Shown here one piece after another: positions 3,677 to 25,724 of a stretch of DNA of 64,000 nucleotides. Numbering within the stretch: position 1 is the first letter of the stretch; every line of letters begins with the position of its first letter. A program made the position numbers and the translations under genes. This DNA comes from an uncultured Pelagibacteraceae bacterium (GTDB lineage Bacteria > Pseudomonadota > Alphaproteobacteria > Pelagibacterales > Pelagibacteraceae): positions 38,612 to 102,611 of the forward strand of contig CACBGU010000002.1 in assembly GCA_902538885.1 (NCBI GenBank). Direction: 5' to 3'. The notes beneath the pieces are model-generated. The model had not been told where the DNA came from and did not search any database. It was given only the letters and a program-made list of their open reading frames with translations.

Positions 3677-4678
3677 TTAAAATTTTATTTTAATTTGTTT
3701 TTTTTGTTTCAAAGAACTTGATGCAGCATTAGCGATGATAAGAGCTCTTCTTCCATCTTCAAAACTAGATATGGGTTTGTTTTTCTTAATTGTATATCTA
3801 GCCAGTTCATCCAGTTGAAGCTTGTATGCATCAACATATCTATCAATAAAAAAATTAAGAAGAGGTTTTTTTTGAGAAGTGTTATTTTTGGTAAATATTT
3901 CCGTCTCGTTTTCTTTTTTATTTCCAGAAATCAACATTCCTTTAGATCCAAACAACTCTACTCTTTGATCATAGCCAAAACTACAATGTCTTGAATTAGC
4001 AATTATACATTGCACACCTTTTTTTGATCTTAAAATGCATGAGGCAAGCTCATAATCTTTAATTTTATCAAATTTTTTGTCAGAAATATTGCTTCCTGTT
4101 GAAAAAATTGAGCTCACTTCATCTTTTTCTAAATAAAATCTAGCTAAATCAAAGTCATGTATCATCATGTCTTTAAATATACCTCCCGAAACTTTTAAAT
4201 AACTTAAAGGAGGAGGGGCAGGATCTCTACTTGTTATTACAATTTTTTCTAGCCGTCCTATTTTTCCTTTTTGAAGCTCTTTTTTTAACGAACTATGACC
4301 CGGGTCATACCTTCTATTAAATCCCAACTGTATTTTTGGATTTAGTTTTTTTATTTTTCTTAGGCATTTGTTAACTTTATCAATATTTAAATCTAAAGGT
4401 TTTTCACAAAAAATTACCTTTTTGTATTTAGCTGCTTCCTCAATTAATTTGATATGCGTTGGTGTACTTGAGGCAATAAATATTAGATCTATATTTTTAT
4501 CTTTGAAAGCAATTTGAGGATTGTTAATAGATGTTGAGTTAAATTTTTTCGATAATTTTTGATTAAGTTTTGTATTGATATCAAAAGTATATTTTAATTT
4601 AAAACTTTTATGAGAAAATAAGTTCTCAGCATGCATTTGACCAATTCTTCCAAGACCAATTAACGCAACGTTAATCAT
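3677..4678 (-). CDS. iolG: Inositol 2-dehydrogenase (Gfo/Idh/MocA)
   Basis: GLGRIG Rossmann motif; ITSRDPAPPPLSYLKVSGGIFKDMMIHDFDLARF is characteristic of IolG. Confidence 0.85.
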   Translation of the reverse strand: MINVALIGLGRIGQMHAENLFSHKSFKLKYTFDINTKLNQKLSKKFNSTSINNPQIAFKDKNIDLIFIASSTPTHIKLIEEAAKYKKVIFCEKPLDLNIDKVNKCLRKIKKLNPKIQLGFNRRYDPGHSSLKKELQKGKIGRLEKIVITSRDPAPPPLSYLKVSGGIFKDMMIHDFDLARFYLEKDEVSSIFSTGSNISDKKFDKIKDYELASCILRSKKGVQCIIANSRHCSFGYDQRVELFGSKGMLISGNKKENETEIFTKNNTSQKKPLLNFFIDRYVDAYKLQLDELARYTIKKNKPISSFEDGRRALIIANAASSSLKQKKQIKIKF

Positions 4679-5832: not shown

Positions 5833-6735
5833 ATGTCAGTAAAATTAGGAATAGCGCCGATTGCATGGAGTAATGATGACATGCCAGAATTAGGAGGTGA
5901 TACTTCTTTAGAACAATGCTTGTCAGAAGCAAGTCAGGCAGGTTTTATTGGAATTGAGTCTGGAGGAAAATTCCCCAAAACATCTGAGGAGTTAATACCT
6001 AAATTAAAAGAGTTTAATTTAAATCTTTGCTCAGGTTGGTATGGAGCAAACTTAAGAAAAAATAGCATTACAGAGGAAAAAAATTTAATTAAAGATCAGC
6101 TAAAATTATTTAAAGATTGCAATTCACCTTGTATGGTTTTTGCTGAAGTTTCAGGTTCGATCCAAGGAGATCCAAACAGAAGACTTTCCACAAGACCAAA
6201 AATGGATCTTGATGAAGCTAAAGAGTACTATTCAAAAATTTCTGAAATGGGAAAATATTTAGAAGATGAAGGAATGCCTCTTGCTTACCATCATCACATG
6301 GGAACAGTTATAGAAACTGAGGAAGATACCATAAGATTGTTAGAAAATACTGATGACAGTGTTAAACTTACTTTAGATACTGGCCATATGTTGTTTGCTC
6401 AGGGTAATTCTCTAAAAATATTAAAAGATTTCAGTGAAAGACTTATTCATATGCACTGCAAAGATATTAGAAAAAATGTTTTAGAAAAATCTTTGAAAGA
6501 AGATTTAAGTTTTAGAGGAGCATTTTTAGAGGGTGCTTTTACAGTGCCTGGAGACGGCTGTATTGATTACAAGCCACTATTTGATGTATTAAAAGAAAAA
6601 AATTATTCAGGTTGGTTGGTAGTTGAAGCTGAGCAAGATCCAGCAAAAGCAAATCCTTTTGAATATGCAAAGATTGGTTATAAATATTTAACTGAAACCT
6701 TAAATAGCAGTAATATAGAGATTTTTAAAAATTGA
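5833..6735 (+). CDS. iolE: Myo-inosose-2 dehydratase
   Basis: LGIAPIAWSNDDMPELGG, GAFTVPGDGCIDYKPLF, VVEAEQDPAKANPFEYA: IolE-specific motifs. Confidence 0.92.
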   Translation: MSVKLGIAPIAWSNDDMPELGGDTSLEQCLSEASQAGFIGIESGGKFPKTSEELIPKLKEFNLNLCSGWYGANLRKNSITEEKNLIKDQLKLFKDCNSPCMVFAEVSGSIQGDPNRRLSTRPKMDLDEAKEYYSKISEMGKYLEDEGMPLAYHHHMGTVIETEEDTIRLLENTDDSVKLTLDTGHMLFAQGNSLKILKDFSERLIHMHCKDIRKNVLEKSLKEDLSFRGAFLEGAFTVPGDGCIDYKPLFDVLKEKNYSGWLVVEAEQDPAKANPFEYAKIGYKYLTETLNSSNIEIFKN

Positions 6736-7236: not shown

Positions 7237-7237
7237 A

Positions 7238-8203
7238 TTAGAGTTTTACAATTTTAGATTTTTCTAACTTTTCCTCAAAAAAATCAATAATATTTTGAAT
7301 TGTCTCTTTACCCATTCTTGTCATACATTCATCGGTAAAAGCTGCAGTATGTGGACTTAAATAAACTTTTTCATTTTTAAGAAGTGGATTATTGTCATCA
7401 GGTGGTTCTTTTTTAAAAACATCAATTCCAGCTCCAAAAATTAAATTTTCATTGAGTGCTTTATCAAGATCTTCTTCATGAATAATTCCACCTCTTGCTG
7501 CATTAATGATAATGCAAGTTTTTTTCATTGTTTTTAATAAATCATAATTAATTAAATTTTCAGTTTTATCCGTTAAAGGCATATGGAGTGAAATAACATC
7601 CATAGTTTTTACTGCTTCAGCTAGATCATCTACTTTTTTTCCACCTAATTCTTCTATTTTATCTTTGTCTACAAATGGATCGTAGACAAATACATTCATT
7701 TCGAAACCCAGACATCTTTTGATTAAAGCTTTTCCTATTCTTCCAAACCCCATTATTAAAAAATTTTTTTTCCAAACTTCTATTGTTTTTGGTAATTTAT
7801 TTCTGTCTTTAAAGTTTCCATCTCTTACTGTTTTGTCAAATAAGCCTTTTCTTTTTGCAATATTTAACAAAACGAACATTACATGTTCTGCAACCGTAAC
7901 AGCATTTGCGTTAGCTGTTATTGCTATTTTAATATCTTTTTCTTTAGCTTTTTTTAAATCGATATTGTCGTAACCAACACCATGTCTTGAAATAATTTTT
8001 AAATTTTTTGCTTCTTCAAAGGTTTCACCAGGAAGCTTTGCAATTCTTATTGATGCACCATCGCAATCTTTTAATTTTGATTTTAAATTTTCTACTGAAG
8101 TGTCATCAGTTACCTCAACGTCAAAGTCAGGATGATTGTTAATTAATTCCATACCTTTTTCATGGACTTTTTGAATAATTAATATCTTTTTTTTATTACT
8201 CAT
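7238..8203 (-). CDS. D-isomer 2-hydroxyacid dehydrogenase (SerA-like)
   Basis: GFGRIGKALIKR, NAARGGIIHEEDL, SPHTAAFT. Confidence 0.88.
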   Translation of the reverse strand: MSNKKKILIIQKVHEKGMELINNHPDFDVEVTDDTSVENLKSKLKDCDGASIRIAKLPGETFEEAKNLKIISRHGVGYDNIDLKKAKEKDIKIAITANANAVTVAEHVMFVLLNIAKRKGLFDKTVRDGNFKDRNKLPKTIEVWKKNFLIMGFGRIGKALIKRCLGFEMNVFVYDPFVDKDKIEELGGKKVDDLAEAVKTMDVISLHMPLTDKTENLINYDLLKTMKKTCIIINAARGGIIHEEDLDKALNENLIFGAGIDVFKKEPPDDNNPLLKNEKVYLSPHTAAFTDECMTRMGKETIQNIIDFFEEKLEKSKIVKL

Positions 8204-8314
8204 AATTATATATCAATTTTTTAGAGAGCATTTTTAATACGAAAATTATTCTATAAAGTAAATTAGTTTTTTGATTAAAGTTGTATTTATTAAATAATTA
8301 AAATAAATTTAGCT

Positions 8315-10200: not shown

Positions 10201-10287
10201 ATATATTTTTTTTACTACTCGATAGACTCTCTAAATCAATTTAAGTATAGTTTATATACATAAATATTTAAAGAGAGGGAAATAATT

Positions 10288-11340
10288 ATGAGTAAATTAA
10301 TAAAATCATTTTTTTCATTATTATTCTTAATCAGTTTTACTGCATCTGTTTCAGCTGCAGATTACAACTTGAGAATGACAATGAACTCTAATGATCAAGA
10401 TGAAGATTATGATGGTGCTGTAGTATTTAAAAACTACGTAGAAGCAGCTTCAAATGGAAAAATAGCTGTAGAACTATTTGTAGGAACACAGCTTTGTTCA
10501 AAAGGTGCCGAGTGTTTACAAGGAGTATCTGATGGAAGTATTGATATTTACATTTCTACTTCTGGAGGTGCTGCAGGTGTATTTCCATATGTTCAAGTTT
10601 TAGATTTACCTTATCTAATGGCCGATGACAGAATTGCTGAAGATGTAATGCAAGGTGATTTTGTAAGAACAATGAGAAAAATGGCTCTAAAAGATTCTAA
10701 TGATTCAATTAGATTGATGACAATTGGAAACACTGGAGGATGGAGAAATTTTGCTAATACAAAAAGAAGAATTGCAAATCCGTCCGACATGAAAGGTTTA
10801 AAAATCAGAACAGTTGTAGCTGATTTACCCCAGGAACTTGTAAGAGCATTAGGTGCATCTCCAACTCCTATTCCATGGCCTGAATTATTTACATCATTTC
10901 AAACCGGTGTAGTTGAAGGTTCTAAAAATGGAATTACTGACATTATGAACATGAAGTTTCCTGATGCAGGTCTAAAATATGTTACTTTAGACGGTCATGC
11001 ATACATGGGGGCATTATGGTGGATGAACAATGCAAAATATGAATCTATGTCACCAGATCTTAAAAAAGTAGTGACAGATGGTTTCTATGCTTTGCAGCAA
11101 GCAACTTTTGCTTCTCCAAAGAGAAAATCAATCAAAGCTTATGAGGACTTTGTAGCAGGTGGTGGAGATTTATATGTTCCAACGCCTGATCAAAAAGCTA
11201 GCTTTAAAAAAGCTGCTAGCCCAGTTTATGATTGGTTTAAATCTAATGTTAAAGGTGGAAAAGAAATTTTCAACGCTTTGACTAAAGCAGTAGCAAGTGC
11301 TGAGAAAAAAGCATCTAGTGCATATAAAAAAGATTTATAA
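10288..11340 (+). CDS. TRAP transporter substrate-binding protein (DctP-like)
   Basis: Signal peptide; GLKIRTVVADLPQELVRALGASPTPIPWPELFTSFQTGVVEG. Confidence 0.93.
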   Translation: MSKLIKSFFSLLFLISFTASVSAADYNLRMTMNSNDQDEDYDGAVVFKNYVEAASNGKIAVELFVGTQLCSKGAECLQGVSDGSIDIYISTSGGAAGVFPYVQVLDLPYLMADDRIAEDVMQGDFVRTMRKMALKDSNDSIRLMTIGNTGGWRNFANTKRRIANPSDMKGLKIRTVVADLPQELVRALGASPTPIPWPELFTSFQTGVVEGSKNGITDIMNMKFPDAGLKYVTLDGHAYMGALWWMNNAKYESMSPDLKKVVTDGFYALQQATFASPKRKSIKAYEDFVAGGGDLYVPTPDQKASFKKAASPVYDWFKSNVKGGKEIFNALTKAVASAEKKASSAYKKDL

Positions 11341-11355
11341 TTTCTAAATAATTTT

Positions 11356-11383
11356 AATAGGGCGGATATTTATTCGCCCTATT
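11356..11383. terminator. Bidirectional terminator hairpin after dctP
   Basis: AATAGGGCGgatatttattCGCCCTATT inverted repeat between convergent genes. Confidence 0.75.
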
Positions 11384-11852
11384 ATCTAAAAGGATATATC
11401 CAAGATTTATAATCTTTTATGAGAATATGAGCTTTTTCAATTTGTTCAGGAGTCATTTTTTTAATAACTTCTTCCTGAGAAATTGCAGCATCAGGGTCTC
11501 CACCAATAGCAGACAAACCATACCACATATAAGCTCTGACAAGATCGGGAGCAGGAAGCCCTCTACCAATTTCGTAATACCATCCAACACCAGATTGAGC
11601 GCCAGGATGACCTTTCATAGAAGATCTGAGATACCATTCAAAAGCTCTAACATCATCTCTTTCTACACCAAGACCCATAGCATACATAATTCCAATAAGC
11701 TCTTCAGCATCTGCATTACCAGATCTAGCTGCTGGCATAAGCTCTTCCATAGCTTCTTTAAATTTTCCTTCTTCCATCAAATCTCTAGCATTCTCTATTT
11801 CTGCAAAAACTATGGATGGAAGAAACAACAGTATAAAAAGATATTTAATCAT
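11382..11852 (-). CDS. Sel1-repeat (TPR-like) secreted protein
   Basis: AEELIGIMYAMGLGVERDDVRAFEWYLRSSMKGHPGAQSGVGWYYEIGRG Sel1 repeats; signal peptide. Confidence 0.85.
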   Translation of the reverse strand: MIKYLFILLFLPSIVFAEIENARDLMEEGKFKEAMEELMPAARSGNADAEELIGIMYAMGLGVERDDVRAFEWYLRSSMKGHPGAQSGVGWYYEIGRGLPAPDLVRAYMWYGLSAIGGDPDAAISQEEVIKKMTPEQIEKAHILIKDYKSWIYPFR

Positions 11853-13190
11853 TTAAAAATAATAATATTTATAATTCCATTTTTAATTTCAGTAAATAAA
11901 TCTTACGCAATTGATTTACCAAAACCATTAAAGAGCGAAGATTTTCATGAAGTTGATGTAGAAAAAGTTAAAATTGGAAGACTTTTATTTCATGATAAAA
12001 TTTTATCTGCAAATCGAAACATTGCTTGCGCAACCTGCCATAGTCATGATCTAGGTGGTTCAGATGGACTTTCATTAGGGATAGGTGAAGGAGGACATGG
12101 TATTGGATTAGAAAGAACAGCTGGAACAGGGGATGATAAAATTAAAAAACGTATTCCTAGGAATGCTTTAGCATTATGGAATTTAGGATTTAAAGATATT
12201 ACAACATTGCTTCATGACGGTAGAGTGACTAAATCTGATATATTTGGCAATGGCTTTAATACCCCAGCGCAAGAACTACTTCCAAAAGGGCTTGATAATA
12301 TAGTTGCTGTACAAGCTTTATTTCCAATGACAAGACAATTTGAAATGGCTGGAAATCCAGGTGAAAATGAAATTATAGGACTTGTTTCGAAAGTTGGTAA
12401 AGACAGTATGAGAATAGATAGAGTTTGGCCTGTAATCACTCATAGAATAAGAGGAATTCCAGAGTATGTTGAAATGTTTAAACATGCATTTGAGGATGTT
12501 GATAATGCTTTAGATATAAATATTACACATATAGTAAATTCAATTGCAGCTTTTGAAATTCATGAATGGACCTCTTTTGACTCTCCATTTGATGAATTTT
12601 TAAATGGAAATAAATCAGCTTTAAATTCAAATCAGATTGCAGGTATGAATTTATTCTATGGTAAAGCTAATTGTAGCTCATGTCATTCTGGGTCTTTATT
12701 GTCTGATCAAAAATTTCATTCAATAGGAATTCCTCAATTTGGGCCTGGAAGGACAAGACCTTTTGATCCTTATGCACGTGATGTTGGAAGAATGGTTGAA
12801 ACAGATGATCTAGACGACATGTATAAATTTAAAACACCTGCGCTAAGAAATGTTTCTTTAACTGCACCTTATGGTCATAATGGTGCTTATCCAACACTTA
12901 AAGGCATAATTAAACATCATTTAAATCCAGTAGTAATGAATAAAAATTGGAAACCTCAATATGCAAATTTACCTAAGGCTCCATGGTTAGAGCAAATAGA
13001 TTTTGTAACTTTTTCTGACAAAAGAGAACAGGATAGAATTATTTCGAGTATAGACATTAAACCAATAGATTTAACTGAAAAAGAAATTGATCAATTGTTA
13101 TCTTTTTTACAATCTCTAACTGGAAAAAGTGGAAATCAAAGACCCCTCGGTAAACCAGAAAAAGTACCAAGTGGATTAACAATTGATTAA
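11853..13190 (+). CDS. Di-heme cytochrome c peroxidase / MauG family; 5' end uncertain
   Basis: Two CxxCH motifs (CATCH, CSSCH), signal-like IIIFIIPFLISVNKSYA; ORF-track start at 11427 overlaps the Sel1 gene and is unlikely. Confidence 0.8.
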   Translation, partial: LKIIIFIIPFLISVNKSYAIDLPKPLKSEDFHEVDVEKVKIGRLLFHDKILSANRNIACATCHSHDLGGSDGLSLGIGEGGHGIGLERTAGTGDDKIKKRIPRNALALWNLGFKDITTLLHDGRVTKSDIFGNGFNTPAQELLPKGLDNIVAVQALFPMTRQFEMAGNPGENEIIGLVSKVGKDSMRIDRVWPVITHRIRGIPEYVEMFKHAFEDVDNALDINITHIVNSIAAFEIHEWTSFDSPFDEFLNGNKSALNSNQIAGMNLFYGKANCSSCHSGSLLSDQKFHSIGIPQFGPGRTRPFDPYARDVGRMVETDDLDDMYKFKTPALRNVSLTAPYGHNGAYPTLKGIIKHHLNPVVMNKNWKPQYANLPKAPWLEQIDFVTFSDKREQDRIISSIDIKPIDLTEKEIDQLLSFLQSLTGKSGNQRPLGKPEKVPSGLTID

Positions 13191-13221
13191 ACTTATTTAA
13201 TTAAACTGATAAATAATAAAT

Positions 13222-14304
13222 ATGGAAAAAATTAAATATGGAATAATTGGAGCTGGCACAATGGCTCGAGAACATATTTTAAATTTATCTTTAATAGATG
13301 AAGCTCAAGTAGTTGCTCTTTCAGATCCTCACGAAGAGTCTTTGAAACAGTGCCAAGAATTACTCAAATCAGAAGTTATTTGCTTTAAAAATCATCAAGA
13401 TCTGATCAAAGAAAATTTAGTTGATGTTTATATAATTTCATCTCCTAATTTTACTCATATTCAAATTTTAAAAGATGTAATTAAAACCAAGAAACATATA
13501 TTGGTTGAAAAACCTTTGTGCACTAAGACAAAAGATTGTTTAGAAATAGAAAAACTTACTAAAAATTACCCTTCAGTTTTTTGGACTGCAATGGAATATA
13601 GGTACATGCCTCCTGTTTCAAAATTTATCAAAGAAATTCACAACAAAACAATTGGTGACCTAAAAACATTAACGATAAGAGAACACAGATTTCCTTTTTT
13701 AAAAAAAGTAAATGATTGGAACAGATTTGAAAAAAATACCGGAGGAACTTTAGTTGAAAAGTGTTGTCATTTTTTTGATTTGATGCGTTTTATTGTTAAG
13801 AGTGAGCCCGTAAGTGTTTATGCGAGTGGGGGGCAAGATGTAAATCATTTAGATGAAGAGTATGATGGTAAAAAACCAGATATTATTGATAACGCTTATG
13901 TAATTGTTAATTTTGAGAATGGATCAAGAAGTATGCTTGAGCTTTGTATGTTTGCCGAAAATTCTGAAATGCAAGAAGAGTTAACTGCAACAGGAAATAT
14001 TGGTAAAATTGAAACTTCAGTTCCTTCAAACGAGTCTGGGAAAACTACTTCTGATGTAAGAATTGGTATGAGAGACGGAAAAACTAAACAAGAAAGTGTT
14101 AGTGTGGATCCAAAAATACTTGAAGCAGGACATCATCATGGTTCAACTTATTATGAACATTTAGCCTTTTTAAATGCAGTAAAAAATAAATTAAAGCCAG
14201 AGGTATCTTTGAATGATGGGTTAATTGCTGTTGCAGTTGGAGAGGCTGCTGAGACATCAATTAAACTTGGAAGAGTAGTTAAGTTAAACGAGATAATTAC
14301 TTAA
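13222..14304 (+). CDS. Gfo/Idh/MocA family oxidoreductase
   Basis: GIIGAGTMAREHI, VEKPLCT. Confidence 0.88.
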   Translation: MEKIKYGIIGAGTMAREHILNLSLIDEAQVVALSDPHEESLKQCQELLKSEVICFKNHQDLIKENLVDVYIISSPNFTHIQILKDVIKTKKHILVEKPLCTKTKDCLEIEKLTKNYPSVFWTAMEYRYMPPVSKFIKEIHNKTIGDLKTLTIREHRFPFLKKVNDWNRFEKNTGGTLVEKCCHFFDLMRFIVKSEPVSVYASGGQDVNHLDEEYDGKKPDIIDNAYVIVNFENGSRSMLELCMFAENSEMQEELTATGNIGKIETSVPSNESGKTTSDVRIGMRDGKTKQESVSVDPKILEAGHHHGSTYYEHLAFLNAVKNKLKPEVSLNDGLIAVAVGEAAETSIKLGRVVKLNEIIT

Positions 14305-15217
14305 AAAAATCTATCGCTTTTTTAACTATAAAATTACTAACTCTTATATTTGACTCTGTTGTGACACCTGAAATATGAGGTGTTAAAATACAATTCATTT
14401 CAGATGTTATTCTTTCGTATAAATCTTTTTTAATAGGTTCATTTTCAAAAACATCTAATGCAAATCCTGAAATTAGATTTTGATCATAAGCATCTATAAG
14501 ATCATTCTCATTTACAACACTACCTCTTGAAGTATTAATTATTATTGGCTGTTTTTGCATTTTAGAGAATGAAGACTTGTTTATTAGATTTTTTGTCTCT
14601 TCGTTTAATGGTAAGTGTAAAGAAATAATATCTGCATCTTTAAATACATTTTCTAATGAAGATAATTTATAATTTTTCTCATTATCATCTAATTTTTTAA
14701 TGTAAGGATCATAAGCCAAAACATTTAGGCCATTTTTCAAACTATAGTCTGCAACCTTTCTACCAATGGTCCCAAAACCTACTATTCCAATACATTTTTC
14801 ATTAATTTCAGCAGATTTAATTGTAGTTCTAGGCCAATTACCTTTGACCGTTCCATTATGAAACATAGGAATTTTTTTTATCAAAGACATCGAGGATGAA
14901 ATTACATACTCTGCCACAGAATCTGCATTCATACCAGTTGCTGGTTGGACATGAATATTTTTGCTTTTACAAAATTCAGTATCAATATTATCCAAACCAA
15001 CACCCAATCTTCCAATAAATTTTAAATTTCTTGCGTTAGATAAAATTATTTTATTAACCTGAGTTTTGTTTCTAACAATTAAACCATCATAATCTTTAAT
15101 TATCTCTAAAAGTTGTTCTTCTTTTTCCCAGAGCTTTTCATCAAATTTGATTTCAAAATTATTATTTAAGTCTTCTAAACTATTCTTATTAATAAATTCA
15201 GTTATCAAAATTTTCAT
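14297..15217 (-). CDS. D-isomer 2-hydroxyacid dehydrogenase
   Basis: GIVGFGTIGRKVADY, NTSRGSVVNENDL, LTPHISGVT. Confidence 0.88.
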   Translation of the reverse strand: MKILITEFINKNSLEDLNNNFEIKFDEKLWEKEEQLLEIIKDYDGLIVRNKTQVNKIILSNARNLKFIGRLGVGLDNIDTEFCKSKNIHVQPATGMNADSVAEYVISSSMSLIKKIPMFHNGTVKGNWPRTTIKSAEINEKCIGIVGFGTIGRKVADYSLKNGLNVLAYDPYIKKLDDNEKNYKLSSLENVFKDADIISLHLPLNEETKNLINKSSFSKMQKQPIIINTSRGSVVNENDLIDAYDQNLISGFALDVFENEPIKKDLYERITSEMNCILTPHISGVTTESNIRVSNFIVKKAIDFFK

Positions 15218-15234
15218 AATTAATAATTGATATT

Positions 15235-16218
15235 TTAAATTAGTTTAGACAAATCCCTTTTATTTGTTTTAAAAGTAGGAAGAGGATATTTAAAAGCATA
15301 TTTACGTGGAATACACTTTTCTTTTGCTTTTTCCCAGAGTGCTAACCATTGTTTAAAATTCTGAATTTTGATATTTTTTTTATTTTTACTTCTTACATAG
15401 AAATTCGGTAGCGGATCTCTTCCAGAAGGTTGGCCAGCTACATTATATCTAAGGTCCGCACTAATTCTAAAATCATTTGATCTGTTCGGTAGAGAACAAT
15501 GAATTGAATGTTTGTGTAAAAGAATTACATCCCCAACATCTGCTTCTAAGTGAATATGTTGCATTTTATCCAGTAATTTGCTGTCTTTAATTTCTACTTG
15601 CCCTCTATATCCAGCAATATGATTTAATAATCCCATTTTATTAATTTTCTTAACAGTAATCATGCAACCATTTTTTTTAGTAGTTTTTGTAAAAGGTATC
15701 CATACAGTAACCATGTCGGTTAATTTTTGTCCTTTAGCATTGAGAACAGCGGCATCCTGATGCCAGGGTGTTCGTCCACTTAAACCATCAAAAACAGAAC
15801 CTTTTGGCAATTTTTTTTCAGGCTGTTTAATTCTAGTATTTTGTACTGGATTAGACATGATTTCTTTACCCAAAATTTTTTCAACAACATCTAAAATGTT
15901 TTTATTATTAATTAAATTCCATAAAGATTGAGTAGCAAAATAATCACTATCTTTCTTAACGTGATCTCTTGGTAATCTAGTATTAAAATACTGATCTAAA
16001 TCATCAATTTTTAATTTTGATATATAAGAATATTTTTTTTTAAAATCTAAATTAAGAACTTTTTTTACATCCTTTTTTTTTGCAAATTTTTGAATTAAAC
16101 AATCCATTACAAATTCCATATCATTAAGGATTGGCTTTAAATCTCTTTGAAAGTTAAGTACGTTTTTTACTTTCAAATACCCTTGTTCAAATAATTTGTT
16201 TTTAAGATTATTTACCAT
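15235..16218 (-). CDS. Phytanoyl-CoA dioxygenase-like Fe(II)/2OG oxygenase
   Basis: HxD (WHQD) and distal H...R (HSIHCSLPNRSNDFRIS). Confidence 0.75.
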   Translation of the reverse strand: MVNNLKNKLFEQGYLKVKNVLNFQRDLKPILNDMEFVMDCLIQKFAKKKDVKKVLNLDFKKKYSYISKLKIDDLDQYFNTRLPRDHVKKDSDYFATQSLWNLINNKNILDVVEKILGKEIMSNPVQNTRIKQPEKKLPKGSVFDGLSGRTPWHQDAAVLNAKGQKLTDMVTVWIPFTKTTKKNGCMITVKKINKMGLLNHIAGYRGQVEIKDSKLLDKMQHIHLEADVGDVILLHKHSIHCSLPNRSNDFRISADLRYNVAGQPSGRDPLPNFYVRSKNKKNIKIQNFKQWLALWEKAKEKCIPRKYAFKYPLPTFKTNKRDLSKLI

Positions 16219-16249
16219 TAATAGAAACTAGTAGAATTTAGTGACAATA

Positions 16250-17122
16250 TCAATTCTTAGGAGCAGTTGTTAAATAGTTTGCGTCATGAAAAGAAGTTAA
16301 CATTCTTTTCTTGGTACTGATGATGTGCGGATAGTAAGCTGTTCCTTTATAATTCCAAATAACTGGCTTATTAAGAGCATAACTTCCATAAATAAAAAAT
16401 CTTTTTGGACAGTTTTTTTCTATAAAACGCTTAACTCCATGATAAGAATTTGGTGTTGATTGAAAAAATACCACACTTCCTTTCTTTGGTGTGAAAGCTT
16501 TGACCACTTCCAATTCACTCATCTTTGGAAATCTTCTGAAACTTTTTCTTAAATTTTTCTTTGATTTTTTTCTATAAATCGTAAGTGATCCTCCATTTTT
16601 TTTTGGAATATCTGTCAGGTAAATTAAGAAATTGTATAATCTTGTGATGTCATCTCTATGAGGACGTAATCTGTATCCTCCTTTAGAAACTGAAAAATCA
16701 ATATCTAAATTAACTTTTGGGTTAGTGTAATTATTTCCTAACAATTTTTTTAATTCGCTTGAATTTAGTTTCTTTTTAACAGTAAATTTTTTTTGATTAA
16801 ATATTTTTGGTTTGTGAGTGTTTGTCCAAGATCCATCTTTAAAATTTTTAGAAAAAAGAGTTTCAATTTTTTTATAAAATGTTTTGCTATTAAAAATTTT
16901 AAATAGTTTTGCAGAATTATTTGAAGATTTAATATAGTTTTTAAAATTTTTTGAGCCTTTGTTAATTCTGCTTCGACCACCCATAATCATGTCGTCAAAG
17001 GCTTTAGATTTACTAATCTCATCAATTAATAAATTACAAGTATTTTTCTCAACAACTTTATCTCCAACCAATACAGGAAAATTACTTTTGATTTTTTTTA
17101 ATCGATTGATTTTAAACATCAA
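16250..17122 (-). CDS. 2OG-Fe(II) oxygenase superfamily protein
   Basis: RPHRDDITRLYNFLIYLTD...NGGSL and SYHGV. Confidence 0.7.
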   Translation of the reverse strand: MMFKINRLKKIKSNFPVLVGDKVVEKNTCNLLIDEISKSKAFDDMIMGGRSRINKGSKNFKNYIKSSNNSAKLFKIFNSKTFYKKIETLFSKNFKDGSWTNTHKPKIFNQKKFTVKKKLNSSELKKLLGNNYTNPKVNLDIDFSVSKGGYRLRPHRDDITRLYNFLIYLTDIPKKNGGSLTIYRKKSKKNLRKSFRRFPKMSELEVVKAFTPKKGSVVFFQSTPNSYHGVKRFIEKNCPKRFFIYGSYALNKPVIWNYKGTAYYPHIISTKKRMLTSFHDANYLTTAPKN

Positions 17123-18063
17123 CTGTACATACCTTCTTTAACCTTTATCATTTTATACATCAGGTCATTTAAAGGTGTTTTTACCCCATGTTTTTTTCCT
17201 ATTTTAGAAACTGCTCCACTAATAAAATCAATTTCAGTTTTTCTTTTGTACTGAACATCAAAAGCCATTGAAGATTTGTTAGTTTGCATAGAATCTACAA
17301 TTTTATTGAACATAAATAGACATTCATCTTCAGAAACATTAACTCCATCAGCAAGTGCTACTTCTCTCGTCTCTAAAATGATTTCTTTACCAAGTCCTCT
17401 TGAGACATCATTAGCCTTATTATTTACATAAAGATCGGTGTGATGCAGATCAAATATAGCTGAAAGGGGACCAATTGCTGTTAGAGCAAAAAGCTTCATC
17501 CATTTTCTTTTTTTTACATCTTCAGCTGCAATCATTTCAAGATTATGTGCAGTAAAAGTATCAGCTATTTCCGTAATTCTCTCTGTTATTCCTCCTTCAT
17601 ATTCACCAATCCATGAAGGCAATGCACCATGGTTCATTATATGACCTGGTCCTAAAATATTTGAAGCTTGCGTTGTTGTTCCACCGATTACCTTTTCATT
17701 TCCAACGATACTTTGAATTATTGCTTCATGACCAATCCCATTTTGAAATGACATGAAGACTGTTTTTTCACCAATAATATTTTTAATACTGTTTAATGCT
17801 GGTTCCAATGCAGTTGCTTTACACATAACAATAACTGCATCCATTTTATCTAAAGACGATGGATTCGAAGTAGCATTAACCTTAATTATACGATCTCCAC
17901 CATGACCATCCATTTTCAAACCATCTTTGTTAATTGCATCTACATGTTCTTTCCAAACGTCAATTAAAGTTACATTCAAACCTTTTTCAGCTAGCAATCC
18001 TCCAAATAGACATCCCATAGCACCTGCACCTAATACAGCTACTTTTAAATCTTTATTTATCAT
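17119..18063 (-). CDS. 2-dehydropantoate 2-reductase family protein (PanE/ApbA)
   Basis: AVLGAGAMGCLFGGLLAEKG, KRKWMKLFALTAIGPLSAI. Confidence 0.85.
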   Translation of the reverse strand: MINKDLKVAVLGAGAMGCLFGGLLAEKGLNVTLIDVWKEHVDAINKDGLKMDGHGGDRIIKVNATSNPSSLDKMDAVIVMCKATALEPALNSIKNIIGEKTVFMSFQNGIGHEAIIQSIVGNEKVIGGTTTQASNILGPGHIMNHGALPSWIGEYEGGITERITEIADTFTAHNLEMIAAEDVKKRKWMKLFALTAIGPLSAIFDLHHTDLYVNNKANDVSRGLGKEIILETREVALADGVNVSEDECLFMFNKIVDSMQTNKSSMAFDVQYKRKTEIDFISGAVSKIGKKHGVKTPLNDLMYKMIKVKEGMYS

Positions 18064-18151
18064 CGTTACCTTTTTTAAAATTATTTATGTATAGAAATTA
18101 TATATATTATCTATAGACAATATGCAAAATAAATTATAGCTTATTAACATT

Positions 18152-19129
18152 ATGCAATTAAAAATAGAAAAAGGAACTTTCACAAATCGTTCACTGGAAG
18201 ATATAGCGAGTGCATTAAAAAAAGGACTTTCTAAAAATTTTAAAAATGTTGAAGTCGAAGTTGTTGATTGTCCTAATCTTCGTGAATGGGATTGTCCATC
18301 TGAAGGAATAAGCGGTAACCAAAAAATCATAGATGTTGGTGGAGAGCCTTACATGCACGATCCTAATTTTATTGGTGCTGAATTTGATTACGAAGAAATT
18401 TCAAAAATGATTGGATCAGAAAAATCTTATGCTTTAGGTGCAGGATCTGGTGCAATGTCGTGTTTGGAAGGTCACTGTGGTGAATTAGTAATTAATGAAA
18501 ATTTAATTACTGATGAGTCTAGATCTATAATTGCAAGAGTAAGTCCTGATAAAAAATGTATCGTTGAAAAATATAGCGCAAGAAAACATGGTGGACTTGG
18601 AAACATTTATTATACTGATGGTAAACAAGGAAAAGTAATTAAAATAAAAATTAAAGTAAGATCAGGAGATCAAGGTTCATTGCCACAAGCAATGAGGTCT
18701 TCATTATCAAATAATTTAAATCTTAAAGCAAATGAACAGATTGCTCTTGCAGGTGTATTTAGAATTCTAGAAGGAAAAGTAAGATCTCATGTTCAACCAG
18801 ATTATAAAGATATTAAACATGAATACTATGATCCAAAACAAATGAAATGTGTAAAAGATTTTCTTCAATTTTATGAACCTGTTGGTCCAAAGTTACAATG
18901 TTATACAGTTCTTTGGACTGGAGATCCTACAGGAGGGGAATTAAATTTAAGAGAGTCTGGCGAACATACTCACTTTCATTCTTATGAACATGATAAAGAC
19001 GCTGGACATTATCATTTTGATGTCACACCTGAAGAAATAGAATATGAAGGTTATTTTAATACTGCTACTGAAGTATATAGAGTAAATAACATTTATAAAG
19101 AACTATTAAGTAAAAATAGTATTGAATAG
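18152..19129 (+). CDS. DUF1907 / C11orf54 (PTD012)-like zinc protein
   Basis: VEVVDCPNLREW, ALGAGSGAMSCLEGHCGEL, VRSHVQPDY, EHTHFHSYEHDKDAGHYHFDVTPEEIEYEGYF resemble human C11orf54 throughout. Confidence 0.8.
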   Translation: MQLKIEKGTFTNRSLEDIASALKKGLSKNFKNVEVEVVDCPNLREWDCPSEGISGNQKIIDVGGEPYMHDPNFIGAEFDYEEISKMIGSEKSYALGAGSGAMSCLEGHCGELVINENLITDESRSIIARVSPDKKCIVEKYSARKHGGLGNIYYTDGKQGKVIKIKIKVRSGDQGSLPQAMRSSLSNNLNLKANEQIALAGVFRILEGKVRSHVQPDYKDIKHEYYDPKQMKCVKDFLQFYEPVGPKLQCYTVLWTGDPTGGELNLRESGEHTHFHSYEHDKDAGHYHFDVTPEEIEYEGYFNTATEVYRVNNIYKELLSKNSIE

Positions 19130-19157
19130 AAAACTCAATGAGTTTAAATTTATTTAA

Positions 19158-19574
19158 ATGAAAAGACAGTTCAAGTATCCTAAGCACTTCGAAGAACAAA
19201 AAAAAATTCCAAAACTTACTCAAAAAAGAATTCAATTAGCAGAAATATCACTTGGAGATTTTGAAGGAAGGTTAGCTAACGAGTTATTGAATTGGTTTTC
19301 TTTAACCCCACAACATTGGATAATGTTGCATATGGTTATGCTTGCTTATTACAAAAATAAATCAATTACAAAAAATCAATTACTTAAAGTAATCGAGAAA
19401 TCATATTTAACCTCAAATGTTTATATCGATACAGCAATAAAAAAAGGTTATTTTAGAATCATAAGAAATGAGAGAGACAAAAGATCAATATTTATATTAC
19501 CTTCAGTAATCACCATTAAAACTTTTGAGGAATTTATTGATAGGAGAGATGTTCTCTATAAAGGTGTAAGATGA
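19158..19574 (+). CDS. MarR-like winged-helix protein
   Basis: Winged-helix-like layout; SNVYIDTAIKKGYFRIIRNERDKRSIFILPS. Confidence 0.55.
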   Translation: MKRQFKYPKHFEEQKKIPKLTQKRIQLAEISLGDFEGRLANELLNWFSLTPQHWIMLHMVMLAYYKNKSITKNQLLKVIEKSYLTSNVYIDTAIKKGYFRIIRNERDKRSIFILPSVITIKTFEEFIDRRDVLYKGVR

Positions 19575-20386
19575 AGAATATCTATACTTGGGCTGCTAAA
19601 CCAGCAAAACGAACTTTGACTGTCGGGGATTTAAAAGCAGCAAAAGGAAAAAGAAAATTTACACAAGTTACAGCGAATAGCGTTGAAGAAGCCGAAGCAG
19701 CTGAAAAGGCAGGATTTGATATGATTATATCAAATGCAAAAAATGTAATTCCTGTAAGAGAAGGTTCAAAAAATTTATTTTTAACAGCTGCTTTAGTTTT
19801 AAATGAGTTTGTAACTGCAGAGGATATTATGCGTGGAGCTTTTAAAGCATTGGAGAATGGTGCGGATGCAGTTATGACACCAAGAAGTATGGATATAGTT
19901 GAAATGCTGGCTAAAGAAGATGTTCCAGTAATGGGGCATTTAGGTTTAGTTCCAAGAAAATCTACTTGGATTGGTGGCTTAAGAGCTGTGGGTAAAACTG
20001 CTGATGAAGCATACGAGCTTTTTCAAAAGTTTAAAAGATTAGAAGATGCAGGTGCTTTTTCAGCTGAGTGTGAAGTAATACCTGAAAATGTAATGGGTGA
20101 AATATCAAAGCGTACAGATATAGTTACTGTTTCATTAGGTTCAGGTAAAAACGCTGATGTAATGTATTTATTTATGGAAGATATCTGTGGTGATACAGAA
20201 AATCCCCCAAGACATTCAAAAGCATATGGAAATTTATTGAGACTTAGAAATGAAATAAAACTAGAAAGAGTAAAAGCTCTTAAGGCTTTTAAAAAAGATT
20301 CAATGAATGGAAAATTTCCAGGAAAAAAACAATCGTCTAATCTAGAAAAAAAACAATTTGAGGAATTTTTAGACCAACTTGATTAG
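19571..20386 (+). CDS. Diverged PanB-like (ketopantoate hydroxymethyltransferase superfamily) protein
   Basis: VPVMGHLGLVP, RLEDAGAFSAECEVIPENV; canonical VGDS replaced (see findings). Confidence 0.6.
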   Translation: MKNIYTWAAKPAKRTLTVGDLKAAKGKRKFTQVTANSVEEAEAAEKAGFDMIISNAKNVIPVREGSKNLFLTAALVLNEFVTAEDIMRGAFKALENGADAVMTPRSMDIVEMLAKEDVPVMGHLGLVPRKSTWIGGLRAVGKTADEAYELFQKFKRLEDAGAFSAECEVIPENVMGEISKRTDIVTVSLGSGKNADVMYLFMEDICGDTENPPRHSKAYGNLLRLRNEIKLERVKALKAFKKDSMNGKFPGKKQSSNLEKKQFEEFLDQLD

Positions 20387-21177
20387 TAAGTAGAGTTGTC
20401 GTCTTTTTTTGATAAAGAACCTTTCATTTTATCAACTGTAGCTTTAGCGCCAGCACTTAAAGCTCTTAAATCAGAAGCTATAGTTACAAAATCAAAACCT
20501 TTTTCGATCATCTTAGTAGCATATTCTGTAGTACCATTATGAATTCCTGCAAAAATATTATTTTTTTTAGCATGTTCTAGAATTCTTAAAATTTCAGAAT
20601 AAGCTTTAGTAGATTCTGACCTATCAAAACCAGGTTTTTCACCTATTGCTAAGCTTAAATCTGCTGGACCAATATAAATACCATCAACACCTGGTGTAGA
20701 CATTATCTCATCAAGATTTTCTAAAGACTCCTTTGTTTCTATCATTGCTAATTTTAGTATTTCTTCATTAGCGTGATCTGCATAATCAGCTCCACCATAA
20801 ATTAAACCTCTAATAGGACCAAAGCTTCTGTAACCATCAGGTGGATACATGCAAGCTTGAACAAAATTCTCTGCCTCTTTTTTATTACTTACCATTGGAC
20901 AAACAATTCCGTAACATCCAGCATCTAAAATTTTCATAATTTGTCCTGGTTCGTTCCAATTAACTCTAGCTAAAGGAGTTACATCTGTTGTTGAAATTGT
21001 CTGAAGCATTGGAAGTGCATTACTGTAGTCAACTAAACCATGCTGCATATCAATAGTTAAAGAATCCCAACCTTGATGAGCCATTGCTTCGACAGAGGCT
21101 GTACTCGGAATCGCACACCAGCCGTTAATAACAGGTTTACCTTCCTTCATCATTTGTTTGATTTTATTTTTTCTCAT
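20383..21177 (-). CDS. HpcH/HpaI family aldolase
   Basis: GWDSLTIDMQHGLVDY, MVSNKKEAENFV, GVDGIYIGPADLSLAIG. Confidence 0.92.
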   Translation of the reverse strand: MRKNKIKQMMKEGKPVINGWCAIPSTASVEAMAHQGWDSLTIDMQHGLVDYSNALPMLQTISTTDVTPLARVNWNEPGQIMKILDAGCYGIVCPMVSNKKEAENFVQACMYPPDGYRSFGPIRGLIYGGADYADHANEEILKLAMIETKESLENLDEIMSTPGVDGIYIGPADLSLAIGEKPGFDRSESTKAYSEILRILEHAKKNNIFAGIHNGTTEYATKMIEKGFDFVTIASDLRALSAGAKATVDKMKGSLSKKDDNSTY

Positions 21178-21180
21178 TTT

Positions 21181-22623
21181 CTAGATTTTTAATCCCATGT
21201 GAGTGTATTTCACATTTAGATAATCTTTTATCGCCCCTGAACCACCTTCGCGACCATAACCAGTTTGTTTTATTCCTCCAAAAGGTGCCTCAGCAATAGC
21301 AACAACTCCAGTATTGACTGCAACACAACCAGACTCTAATTTTTCAGATCCGATATGAGCTTTATCCATAGAGTTAGTGTATAAATAACTACATAATCCT
21401 AAGTCATTATCATTTGCTCTTTCAATTACTTCATCAAAAGTTTTAAAAGTTAAAATTGGAACTAGTGGACCGAAAGGTTCTTCTTTCATAATTGTAAAAT
21501 TATCTTTAACATCATCAAAGACTGTTGGTTCATAATAGTATCCCTTGTTAAAACCAGAAGGTCTTTGTCCACCCATTAATACTTTTGCTCCTTCTTTTTT
21601 AGTAGTTTCAACTAGTTTTTCTATTTCTTCCAATCTTTTAGCGGTAGTTAAAGGTCCAAGATCCACACCTTCATCCATACCGTTTCCAATTTTTAATTTT
21701 TTTGCCCTTTCAATAAAAGCATTAACAAAATCCTCTTTTCTGTTTTCTTGGATATAAAATCTATTAGGTGAAATACAGACCTGACCGTTATTTCTAAATT
21801 TACCAGTTATTGCTATATCAGCCACTTTGTTCATATCTACATCTTCACATACAATAAAAGGAGAGTGTCCGCTTAGCTCCATAGTAACTCTTTGAACTTT
21901 ATCAGCTGCTTTTTTTAAAATAATTTTACCAACTCTAGTTGATCCAGTAACTGATACTTTTTTAATTATATCAGACTCCATTAATTCATTTGATATTTCA
22001 GCAGGATCACCTGACAAAAGACTCACAACACCATCAGGTACTCCAGCTTCTTTACAAATGTTTACTAATTCCATTACAGCACCAGGAGTAATTACATCTG
22101 GCTTACAAATTACAGAACATCCTGCAGCTAGGGCAGTAGAAATTTTTCTAGATGCTAAAACTATTGGGAAATTCCAAGGAACTAAAGCTGCAACAACTCC
22201 TACAGGTTGATAATAAACATGAACTCTAGTATCTGGAAATCTACTTTGTTGTGTTTGTCCATAAATTCTTTTTGTTTCTTCAGCATTCCACTCAAAAATA
22301 TCAGCTCCACCACCAACTTCACCAACTGCTTCCGCAAGAGGTTTTCCAACTTCAAGAGTTAACCATTTTGCTATAACATCTTTTTTTTCTCTCATCATGT
22401 CTGCAATTTTTCTAAGTACGTAAGCTCTTTGCCAAGGCGCAGTGTTTTTCCAAACTTCCAAACCTTTTTCTGCAGACTTTAATGCTTTTTGTACTTCAAT
22501 AGATGAAGCTTTTGATGCTTTTCCAATTACTTCTTCTGTTGCAGGGTTGATTACGTCGTAAGTTTCTTTTTTTTCAGCTTGTTGCCATTTACCGTCAATG
22601 AATTGTCCAAATTTTTCGTACAT
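21181..22623 (-). CDS. NAD(P)-dependent aldehyde dehydrogenase
   Basis: VVAALVPWNFPIVL, MELSGHSPFIV, NNGQVCISPNRFY. Confidence 0.93.
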   Translation of the reverse strand: MYEKFGQFIDGKWQQAEKKETYDVINPATEEVIGKASKASSIEVQKALKSAEKGLEVWKNTAPWQRAYVLRKIADMMREKKDVIAKWLTLEVGKPLAEAVGEVGGGADIFEWNAEETKRIYGQTQQSRFPDTRVHVYYQPVGVVAALVPWNFPIVLASRKISTALAAGCSVICKPDVITPGAVMELVNICKEAGVPDGVVSLLSGDPAEISNELMESDIIKKVSVTGSTRVGKIILKKAADKVQRVTMELSGHSPFIVCEDVDMNKVADIAITGKFRNNGQVCISPNRFYIQENRKEDFVNAFIERAKKLKIGNGMDEGVDLGPLTTAKRLEEIEKLVETTKKEGAKVLMGGQRPSGFNKGYYYEPTVFDDVKDNFTIMKEEPFGPLVPILTFKTFDEVIERANDNDLGLCSYLYTNSMDKAHIGSEKLESGCVAVNTGVVAIAEAPFGGIKQTGYGREGGSGAIKDYLNVKYTHMGLKI

Positions 22624-22715
22624 AGAATTTATTTTTAAGTTTACTTAATTAGGTTTTTTAATTTATAAATAGAATTATATATAAACATTATACATATTAA
22701 AAGATAAACATATTT

Positions 22716-24560
22716 ATGAAAAAAATTACCCTCACATGTGCTCATGCGATAGTTAAATATTTAATTTCTCAGAAAATATTAATTAACGGTAAAAAAGAAC
22801 CTTTATTTCCGGGTGTCTTCGGAATTTTTGGACATGGAAATGTAGCTTGCTTAGGTCAAGCACTAGAGGAAAATCAAAAAGAACTTCCAACATATAGAGG
22901 GCATCACGAACAAAATATGGCACTTACAGGAATTGGATATGCTAGAGCGAAAAGAAGACAACAAATTTTTGTAGCAACATCTTCTGTTGGACCTGGGGCA
23001 ACAAATATGGTTACAGCTGCTGCAGTTGCTATGAGTAACAGATTACCAATTTTATTTTTACCTGGAGACACTTATGCAAATAGAATGCCAGATCCAGTAT
23101 TGCAACAAGTTGAGCATTTTAATAACCCAGGAATAACAGCTAACGATGCATTTAAACCAGTTACAAGATATTTTGATCGAATAATCAGACCAGAGCAGAT
23201 TATTCAATCATTCCCGGCAGCAGTTCAAACAATGTTAGATCCTGCAGATTGTGGTCCTGCATGTATCGCTTTAAGTCAAGATATACAAGGTCAAACTTTT
23301 GATTATCCTGAAGAATTTTTTAAAGAAAGAGTTCACGCGATTAGAAGACCAAGACCGGATGAATTTCAAATTAAAGAGGCAGCAGAAAAAATTAAGTCAT
23401 CTAAAAATCCAATTATAATTTCAGGTGGTGGAGTTTTTTACTCAGATGCAATGGATGAGTTAAGTCAATTTGCAATTAAACACAACATACCAGTTACTCA
23501 AACTGTAATGGGATATTCTACAATGAAAAGAGATCATTCTCATTTTGCAGGCCAGATTGGCGGTTTAGGAGGAAAAAATACAAATTCATTAGCAAAAGAA
23601 ACAGATTTAGCAATTGCAGTTGGAACCAAACTTGCAGATTTTACAACTGGTTCATGGGCAAATTTTGAAAACGAAAATTTTAAACTAGTTTCAATAAATG
23701 TATCAAGATTTGATGCTAACAAACATTTAGCGCAAGCGGTCATTGGAGATGCTAAAGTTTCATTAACAGAGCTATCCCAAGCATTAGGTAGTTGGAAAGC
23801 TGGAGAAGAATGGAATAAAAAATCTCAAACTGAACTCAAATCCTGGAATGAACATATAGACAAAGAGAGTGCGCCAACAAATCAAGAAGTTCCAAGTTAT
23901 GTTCAGGTAATTGGCGCGATTTATAGAAACTCTGACCCAACAGATATTGCTGTTACTGCAGCAGGAGGTTTAGTTGGTGAAGTTGTTCAAGTTTGGAGAC
24001 CTAGAGAATTAAATACTCATGAAACAGAGTGGGGTTTTAGTTGTATGAGTTATGAAATTTCTGGAGCGCTTGGAATAAAAATGGCTAATCCTGATAAAGA
24101 AGTAATTTCTTTTGTAGGAGATGGTTCTTATCTTCTAAATAATACAGATATTTATTCATCAGTTATTACAAAAAACAAATTGATAATTATAGTTTGTGAT
24201 AATGGTGGGTTTGCAGTTATCAATCGACTCCAATTATTTAAAGGTGGTAAAGAATATAACAACTTATTAAAGAGCTCTAATACTCCTGGACTAGTTGATG
24301 TTGATTTTGCAAAACATGCAGAAAGTATGGGAGCTAAATCTGAACATGTTAATTCAATTTCAGATCTTGAAGCTGCATTTAAGAGAGCAAAAGCATCCGA
24401 TGTAACATACGTTATTTCAATTAAAACTCATGCTTATAAATGGGTTGAGGGATCAGCTTTTTGGGATAGCCCTACACTAGAAATTCCGACAACTAAAGAG
24501 AATGAAGAAGCTTTAAAACTTTATAAAGAAGGAAAAGGCAAACAAAGACAAGGTGTATAA
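22716..24560 (+). CDS. iolD: 3D-(3,5/4)-trihydroxycyclohexane-1,2-dione acylhydrolase
   Basis: ThDP enzyme; FGIFGHGNVACLGQAL, YRGHHEQNMALTGIGYARAKRRQQI, GDGSYLLNNTDI. Confidence 0.92.
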   Translation: MKKITLTCAHAIVKYLISQKILINGKKEPLFPGVFGIFGHGNVACLGQALEENQKELPTYRGHHEQNMALTGIGYARAKRRQQIFVATSSVGPGATNMVTAAAVAMSNRLPILFLPGDTYANRMPDPVLQQVEHFNNPGITANDAFKPVTRYFDRIIRPEQIIQSFPAAVQTMLDPADCGPACIALSQDIQGQTFDYPEEFFKERVHAIRRPRPDEFQIKEAAEKIKSSKNPIIISGGGVFYSDAMDELSQFAIKHNIPVTQTVMGYSTMKRDHSHFAGQIGGLGGKNTNSLAKETDLAIAVGTKLADFTTGSWANFENENFKLVSINVSRFDANKHLAQAVIGDAKVSLTELSQALGSWKAGEEWNKKSQTELKSWNEHIDKESAPTNQEVPSYVQVIGAIYRNSDPTDIAVTAAGGLVGEVVQVWRPRELNTHETEWGFSCMSYEISGALGIKMANPDKEVISFVGDGSYLLNNTDIYSSVITKNKLIIIVCDNGGFAVINRLQLFKGGKEYNNLLKSSNTPGLVDVDFAKHAESMGAKSEHVNSISDLEAAFKRAKASDVTYVISIKTHAYKWVEGSAFWDSPTLEIPTTKENEEALKLYKEGKGKQRQGV

Positions 24561-24566
24561 ACCTTT

Positions 24567-25724
24567 ATGAACAAAATTTTCAAAGTCGGTCTTATTGGCT
24601 GTGGTCATATTTCAGAAACTTATTTTAGAGCTCAAGAATATTTTAATAATATTAGAATAGTTAAGTGTGCAGATATAAATATGGAAGCAGCTAAAAAGTG
24701 TGCAATTCATTATAATATTGAAGCTTTAACAGTAGAGGAACTTTTAAAAGATAAAGAAATTGAAATAATTCTAAATCTGACGATCCCGGGAGCACATTAC
24801 GAAGTTTCTAAAATGGCTCTAGAAAATGGAAAACATTCATATGCTGAAAAACCAATGGCAGTAAATTTTGAGGATGGAAAAAAATTACTTGAATTAGCTA
24901 AAGAAAAAAATCTTTATATAGGAAATGCTCCAGATACATTTTTAGGAGGAGGAATTCAAAAAACTAGAGAGTTAATTGATAATGGTGTGATTGGTGATAT
25001 TAAATTAGGAAATGCTATATTTGCATTTCCAGGAGTTCAATCCTACCACCCAAATCCAGAAAGTTGGTTTGCAGAAAATGAAGGAGGACCTGTTATTGAT
25101 ATGGGTCCATACTATTTAACTGCATTAGTAAATCTCATTGGACCAGCAAAACAAGTGCAAGGAAGATGTACAAAAGTTTTTGAAGAAAGAGAAATCGGAA
25201 TTGGTCCGAAAAAAGGTCAAAAATTTAAAGTTGAAACACCTACAACTTACTTGGCAACAATACAATTTGAAAATGATTGTATAATTCAAATAACTTTATC
25301 ATTTGATGTTGTTGCTCATCAAAGAAATCATATTGAGCTTTATGGAAACAAAGGATCAATAATTGTTCCTGATCCAAACATGTTTGGTGGATCTGCTTTT
25401 GTCTCAGTTACAGCCGGAGGTAATTGGGGAGAGCACAAAACAGACATGATGCCTTTAGGTAAGATTAATATAAAGAGTCAAAGTTCTAGAGCAAATGAGT
25501 CACCCACTAATGCAAATTATAGAGGAGCTGGTTTATCAGAAATGGCTTATGCAATTGAAAATAATTTAGAACATAGATGTAATGGAGAGTTATCTCTTCA
25601 TGTTTTAGACATAATAGATTCTACCATGAGGGCCTCTCAAACTGGAATTCCTCAAGAAATAAAAACAACCTGCAAAAAACCAAAACCTTTTACTTTAGAA
25701 GAAATTAAAAAAATACTAAACTAA
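24567..25724 (+). CDS. Gfo/Idh/MocA family oxidoreductase
   Basis: GLIGCGHISETYF, AEKPMAVNF. Confidence 0.88.
   Translation: MNKIFKVGLIGCGHISETYFRAQEYFNNIRIVKCADINMEAAKKCAIHYNIEALTVEELLKDKEIEIILNLTIPGAHYEVSKMALENGKHSYAEKPMAVNFEDGKKLLELAKEKNLYIGNAPDTFLGGGIQKTRELIDNGVIGDIKLGNAIFAFPGVQSYHPNPESWFAENEGGPVIDMGPYYLTALVNLIGPAKQVQGRCTKVFEEREIGIGPKKGQKFKVETPTTYLATIQFENDCIIQITLSFDVVAHQRNHIELYGNKGSIIVPDPNMFGGSAFVSVTAGGNWGEHKTDMMPLGKINIKSQSSRANESPTNANYRGAGLSEMAYAIENNLEHRCNGELSLHVLDIIDSTMRASQTGIPQEIKTTCKKPKPFTLEEIKKILN

Follow-up and report, generated by a model that had tools for sequence, protein, structure and literature searches.

The DUF1907 gene and its neighbors

We analyzed a 64,000-nucleotide stretch of an uncultured Pelagibacteraceae (SAR11) genome, referred to here as the window, which contains a gene for a DUF1907/C11orf54-family protein (Table 1). 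The open reading frame was found exactly where a preliminary description of this DNA had placed it, on the plus strand, and the neighbors which that description had named, genes for PanE-like, PanB-like, HpaI-like aldolase, aldehyde dehydrogenase (ALDH), and IolD proteins, are all present.

Table 1 Features of the window discussed in the text
Feature	Positions	Strand	Basis or remark
IolG (inositol 2-dehydrogenase)	3677..4678	-	TIGR04380, 370.6 bits (cut-off, 355)
IolE (inosose dehydratase)	5833..6735	+	TIGR04379, 397.6 bits (cut-off, 290)
2-Hydroxyacid dehydrogenase (2HADH), inositol module	7238..8203	-	
PhyH-family Fe(II)/2OG oxygenase, cassette	15235..16218	-	PF05721
2OG-Fe(II) oxygenase, cassette	16250..17122	-	PF13640
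PanE/ApbA-like NAD(P) dehydrogenase, proposed to supply the beta-keto acid	17119..18063	-	TIGR00745, 235.6 bits
Short intergenic region, DUF1907 and PanE-like genes diverging	18064..18151	.	Window's genus
DUF1907/C11orf54-family protein, 325 aa, ATG start	18152..19129	+	PF08925, 1xcr, and Foldseek
Zinc motif codons H272-x-H274-x11-H286, within DUF1907	18965..19009	+	Alignment of homologs and human PTD012
Small protein	19158..19574	+	No Pfam match
PanB-like (Pantoate_transf) protein, cassette	19571..20386	+	PF02548, 123.5 bits
HpcH/HpaI aldolase, inositol module, not cassette	20383..21177	-	With IolD in DUF1907-negative genomes
ALDH, inositol module	21181..22623	-	
IolD (inositol ring-opening hydrolase)	22716..24560	+	TIGR04377, 800.5 bits (cut-off, 715)
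Gfo/Idh/MocA oxidoreductase after IolD, inositol module	24567..25724	+	

Using hmmscan, we found PF08925 (DUF1907) as the single Pfam family in this open reading frame (E value of 3.4e-62); the score of 210.9 bits (curated cut-off, 25) is far beyond chance, and the match covers profile positions 1 to 285 of 285. A phmmer search of the PDB returned human PTD012/C11orf54 (1xcr) as the sole entry, with an E value of 1.7e-41 over query residues 10 to 313, a whole-length match that bears out the collinearity with the human protein proposed earlier. A profile built from 15 homologs also returned 1xcr (E value of 2.2e-43) and no other PDB entry at E values up to 10, so the protein was not placed among the acetolactate decarboxylases by sequence. 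The open reading frame encodes a full-length SAR11 member of the C11orf54/DUF1907 family. Since its identity to human C11orf54 is about 31%, its substrate may differ from the human one.

The His-rich segment pointed out in the preliminary description, HTHFHSYEHDKDAGHYHFD, is present, and the three histidines of the zinc motif (H272, H274, and H286) are invariant across 15 SAR11 homologs from three genera and align with the HTH...GGH motif of human PTD012. We also obtained an AlphaFold2 model of the protein, which is moderately confident overall (mean pLDDT of 68.6 and pTM of 0.76) and has low confidence near parts of the active site (pLDDT of <50 for residues 96 to 121 and 213 to 240). When this model of moderate confidence was used in Foldseek, the first-ranked structure was human PTD012 (1xcr), with an E value of 6.4e-22 and TM scores of 0.72/0.75. 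The second was the acetolactate decarboxylase 5yho, with an E value of 3.3e-3, a probability of 0.99, and a likeness that is partial (TM scores of 0.38/0.49), and nothing convincing was returned beyond these two.

The physiological role of the human protein, described as unsettled in the preliminary description, has since been assigned. According to a PNAS commentary on the 2025 work of Malatesta et al. (PMC12435205), C11orf54 is a 3-dehydro-L-gulonate decarboxylase (EC 4.1.1.34), an assignment repeated in a 2026 paper (PMC12921845). The commentary also describes a zinc site in C11orf54, a structural resemblance to acetolactate decarboxylase, and rotifer proteins in which DUF1907 is naturally fused to a 3HCDH-type dehydrogenase (PMC12435205). 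The fold search, based on the predicted structure, agrees independently with the human decarboxylase assignment.

Distribution and linkage of the cassette genes

In a GTDB-wide scan, the best 80 of 151 relatives of the DUF1907 protein all came from Pelagibacteraceae, represented by single-cell genomes and metagenome-assembled genomes. Within this family, DUF1907 is a patchy gene, since it was found in 64 of 247 genomes and 3 of 14 genera; of the 102 SAR11 genomes with a completeness of ≥90%, 22 carried it. When 385 Alphaproteobacteria and 399 Pseudomonadota were sampled evenly, in two overlapping sets, DUF1907 appeared in the window's own genome only, and no relatives were found among plasmid records or viral contigs.

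We found that four other genes follow this distribution closely. Among the 102 near-complete SAR11 genomes, the PanE-like gene occurred in the same 22 genomes as DUF1907 and in 0 of the other 80, and the PanB-like gene occurred in 21 of the 22 compared to 2 of the 80 without DUF1907, these two matches being a fragment at a contig edge and a distant paralog. In 52 chosen genomes, the PhyH gene was present in all 22 with DUF1907 and in none of 30 without it, and the 2OG-Fe(II) gene was present in 19 of 22 compared to 1 of 30, the single exception being a paralog of 38% identity. Fisher tests of this co-occurrence, which ignore relatedness and use counts that are not phylogenetically independent, gave P values from 4e-10 to 8e-23, with about 1e-22 for the PanE-like gene. 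Pairwise distances of these proteins also correlated with those of DUF1907 (0.91 for PanE-like, 0.91 for PhyH, 0.96 for 2OG-Fe(II), and 0.85 for PanB-like), compared to 0.75 for ALDH, 0.81 for IolD, and 0.32 for HpaI, which does not track DUF1907; because the genes were sampled from different sets, these correlations serve as supporting evidence only.

Gene order is nearly constant across 80 loci of the window's genus (g1): PhyH, 2OG-Fe(II), and PanE-like genes, then the divergent DUF1907, small-protein, and PanB-like genes, followed by HpaI and ALDH and by IolD and Gfo. The PanE-like gene is the immediate upstream divergent neighbor of DUF1907 in 77 of the 78 loci that could be scored from the best 80 of 151 relatives. 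The small-protein gene adjoins DUF1907 in all 80 same-genus loci from this set, and also in two further loci (L117 and L118); to judge by its sequence, its product is probably a winged-helix regulator.

In the two other SAR11 genera with DUF1907 (g277 and g279), the surroundings comprise genes for a branched-chain-amino-acid-type ABC transporter, an EamA transporter, an acyl-CoA ligase, a BadI/MenB-like crotonase, an MR_MLE dehydratase, a CitE-like lyase, a Gfo/Idh protein, and an FAH-superfamily protein. DUF1907, PanE-like, PhyH, and PanB-like genes are common to all three genera; the 2OG-Fe(II) protein was not found in g277. Thus, DUF1907 belongs to a patchily distributed five-gene catabolic cassette of PhyH, 2OG-Fe(II), PanE-like, DUF1907, and PanB-like genes.

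Two features of these other genera were also observed. After the PanE-like gene there is a conserved run of acyl-CoA ligase, BadI/MenB-like crotonase, MR_MLE dehydratase, CitE-like lyase, and Gfo/Idh genes (L126, positions 2020 to 8614; L137, positions 13499 to 18940); BadI-type chemistry also works on cyclic beta-keto acids. The FAH-superfamily protein, which has weak HpaH/DmpH similarity and no Pfam hit, is encoded by a gene divergently paired with DUF1907 (L115, positions 8564 to 9343; L126, positions 8607 to 9377).

The inositol module and the insertion site

Genomes that lack DUF1907, including some from the window's own genus, carry an intact module around IolD (for example, L147 to L151) that comprises a sugar ABC transporter, IolG, IolE, a 166-aa protein, 2HADH, HpaI, ALDH, IolD, and Gfo. 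In these genomes HpaI abuts 2HADH; in L147, 6 bases separate the two genes. Where g1 genomes carry DUF1907, the cassette occupies precisely this site (in L145, 2HADH is at positions 6112 to 7068 and HpaI at 10918 to 11709), and in the window the interval from 8204 to 20382 contains a TRAP transporter and further genes besides the cassette. The inositol module and DUF1907 are on different contigs in g277 and g279 (L153 to L156). Because the module occurs without DUF1907, and elsewhere in two genera, the aldolase, ALDH, and iolD genes form a separate module. The preliminary description had taken them as functional context for DUF1907; its suggestion of carbohydrate-type catabolism and the PanE-like and PanB-like partners held up, and this part of the neighborhood proved misleading. 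As one finding that would count against it, the preliminary description had named relatives lacking a consistent association with sugar-acid genes. This is not outright what we found, because a conserved catabolic link exists, and it leads to genes other than those that had been stressed.

Insertions between 2HADH and HpaI vary among SAR11 genomes, the interval being empty in L147 (positions 13079 to 13086), occupied by the cassette in L145 (7069 to 10917), or occupied by the cassette together with TRAP transporter genes in the window. Within this interval, the C-terminal part of the product of the open reading frame at 11427 to 13190 resembles, by eye, a di-heme cytochrome c peroxidase with CxxCH motifs; its true start is probably downstream, because its N-terminal 140 residues overlap a minus-strand open reading frame at 11382 to 11852.

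IolB was found in 0 of 56 SAR11 genomes, with control genomes positive, and IolC was above its cut-off in 0 of 8. With true IolG, IolE, and IolD (window positions 3677 to 8203 and 20383 to 25724; L147 to L158) but no IolB and no IolC above its cut-off, the lower half of inositol degradation must differ in these bacteria, where it perhaps proceeds via the module's ALDH, HpaI, 2HADH, and Gfo genes.

The PanE-like and PanB-like partners

The PanE-like protein scores above the broad TIGR00745 subfamily cut-off. At two Asn positions after the catalytic Lys, which are substrate binding in ketopantoate reductases, it has Leu and Gly. Its N-terminal domain matches 3HCDH_N with a score of 24.7 (cut-off, 22), the dehydrogenase itself being PanE/ApbA-like. 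The PanB-like protein scores 92.4 bits compared to a cut-off of 207.55 for the NCBIfam PanB equivalog, and Ala and Pro replace two Mg ligands that are D84 and E114 in E. coli PanB. By score and residues, the PanB-like protein is not a normal ketopantoate hydroxymethyltransferase. A role of the two proteins together in pantothenate synthesis was rejected on the substitutions at D84/E114 and at the Asn positions and on the cut-offs.

We also examined six plasmid loci from rhizobia and roseobacters (L131 to L136) that encode the closest plasmid relatives of the PanB-like protein, at 42 to 58% identity. A gene of the fatty-acid-desaturase/hydroxylase family adjoins or lies near the PanB-like gene in all six, a full MocD/E/F-like set (desaturase, 2Fe-2S protein, and FAD oxidoreductase) is present in four, and a gene annotated as inositol oxygenase is present in one. 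Despite such oxygenase neighbors in rhizobia and roseobacters, this family, in which the usual metal ligands are missing, carries the annotation 3-methyl-2-oxobutanoate hydroxymethyltransferase.

Proposed function of the SAR11 DUF1907 protein

We propose, with a probability of about 0.62, that DUF1907 in SAR11 is a zinc decarboxylase acting on a beta-keto acid supplied by the PanE-like enzyme as part of the five-gene cassette. The analysis shows the family, zinc motif, fold, co-occurrence, and insertion site; decarboxylation in SAR11 and the following order of steps and class of substrate are our inferences. The cassette would open up an oxidized or methylated compound, with the oxygenases and the PanB-like protein acting upstream or on a one-carbon unit. 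The PanE-like enzyme, substituting for the animal L-gulonate 3-dehydrogenase, would oxidize the hydroxyl beta to the carboxylate and so supply the beta-keto acid one step before DUF1907. The DUF1907 protein would bind this beta-keto acid, a 3-dehydro sugar or cyclitol acid, via its zinc and free CO2, leaving a ketone or ketose, and in the window's genus the product may enter the inositol degradation operon that hosts the cassette. Against this reading, PanE-family enzymes normally use 2-oxo acids and would not be expected to act at C3, and the animal pathway is not reconstructed, the core cassette having no recognizable L-xylulose kinase or reductase.

Another possibility is that the SAR11 protein catalyzes the exact animal reaction, from 3-dehydro-L-gulonate to L-xylulose and CO2, in glucuronate or gulonate degradation. 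The family, zinc motif, and fold are common to human C11orf54, whose activity is reported in the commentary (PMC12435205), and an SDR and sugar-acid-type enzymes (the MR_MLE dehydratase and Gfo/Idh protein) are encoded near DUF1907 in two other SAR11 genera. However, a CRYL1-type dehydrogenase and a uronate reductase are also missing from the core cassette, and the oxygenases and PanB-like protein have no role in the animal pathway, so we consider this exact reaction unlikely.

A more speculative and still less probable version of the decarboxylase proposal is that the cassette is an undescribed SAR11 route for a cyclitol of marine algal origin that is carboxylated or C-/O-methylated. The oxygenases would oxidize the substituent and the PanE-like enzyme the neighboring hydroxyl, and DUF1907 would decarboxylate the resulting beta-keto acid, which would be cyclic and resemble acetolactate, giving an inosose or related ketone for the IolB-less inositol module. 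If this is true, a second class of substrate, a bacterial one, would be added for the C11orf54 family.

We also considered whether DUF1907 is itself a step of the SAR11 inositol pathway that replaces the missing IolB/IolC branch after IolD. The scores of IolG, IolE, and IolD above their equivalog cut-offs, the lack of IolB and of an IolC above cut-off, and, in the window's genus, the placement of the cassette within the inositol operon would fit such a step. However, many genomes with the same IolB-less module, including the complete genome G207, have no DUF1907, a distribution that makes this reading improbable; in addition, DUF1907 lies elsewhere in the genome in two other genera, and IolD is absent from a few DUF1907 genomes, probably owing to contig breaks. 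Completion of an IolB-less pathway by DUF1907 is not favored, as DUF1907-negative genomes with the module are equally without IolB.

The older annotation as an esterase, lactonase, or other hydrolase, close to the hydrolase, lactonase, or isomerase step suggested in the preliminary description, is the least probable reading, since p-nitrophenyl acetate hydrolysis by PTD012 (noted in the commentary, PMC12435205) and a zinc site compatible with hydrolysis are set against a physiological reaction reported as decarboxylation (PMC12435205, PMC12921845) and a zinc decarboxylase as the second-ranked fold; given the reported human activity, decarboxylase is the better guess.

The SAR11 DUF1907 protein thus represents a recently solved family in bacteria and in new gene surroundings. 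For decades C11orf54 had no assigned reaction, and it has received one only recently. A bacterial DUF1907 with an obligate dehydrogenase partner, from bacteria that rank among the most abundant in the ocean, offers an independent and easily assayed test of the decarboxylation range of the family, in which the partner genes make a second substrate directly testable. In addition, DUF1907 is a marker of a catabolic cassette with a patchy distribution in SAR11, and the substrate of this cassette would be a newly recognized component of dissolved organic matter.

Comparison with known systems

The SAR11 protein resembles human C11orf54/PTD012 in its whole-length sequence match, HxH...H zinc motif, predicted fold, and coupling to an NAD(P) dehydrogenase. 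It differs in that its partner is PanE-like rather than CRYL1/3HCDH and in its linkage to Fe(II)/2OG oxygenases and a PanB-like protein. Acetolactate decarboxylase, the second-best fold match, carries out zinc-dependent decarboxylation of a beta-keto acid, but it belongs to a different family with no detectable sequence similarity to SAR11 DUF1907.

A third comparison is with rhizopine catabolism, which, going by the title of Bahar et al. 1998 as cited in PMC10107442, involves a ferredoxin oxygenase complex (mocDEF) and the inositol pathway. No DUF1907 was seen in the examined rhizobial PanB-like loci. SAR11 uses Fe(II)/2OG oxygenases, and no moc oxygenase genes were seen in the SAR11 cluster. 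The points of likeness are that the rhizobial PanB-like relatives lie beside MocD/E/F-like oxygenase genes and that the SAR11 oxygenase cassette is located within an inositol operon; by analogy, they suggest that the cassette may convert a modified compound into a form that central or inositol catabolism can use.
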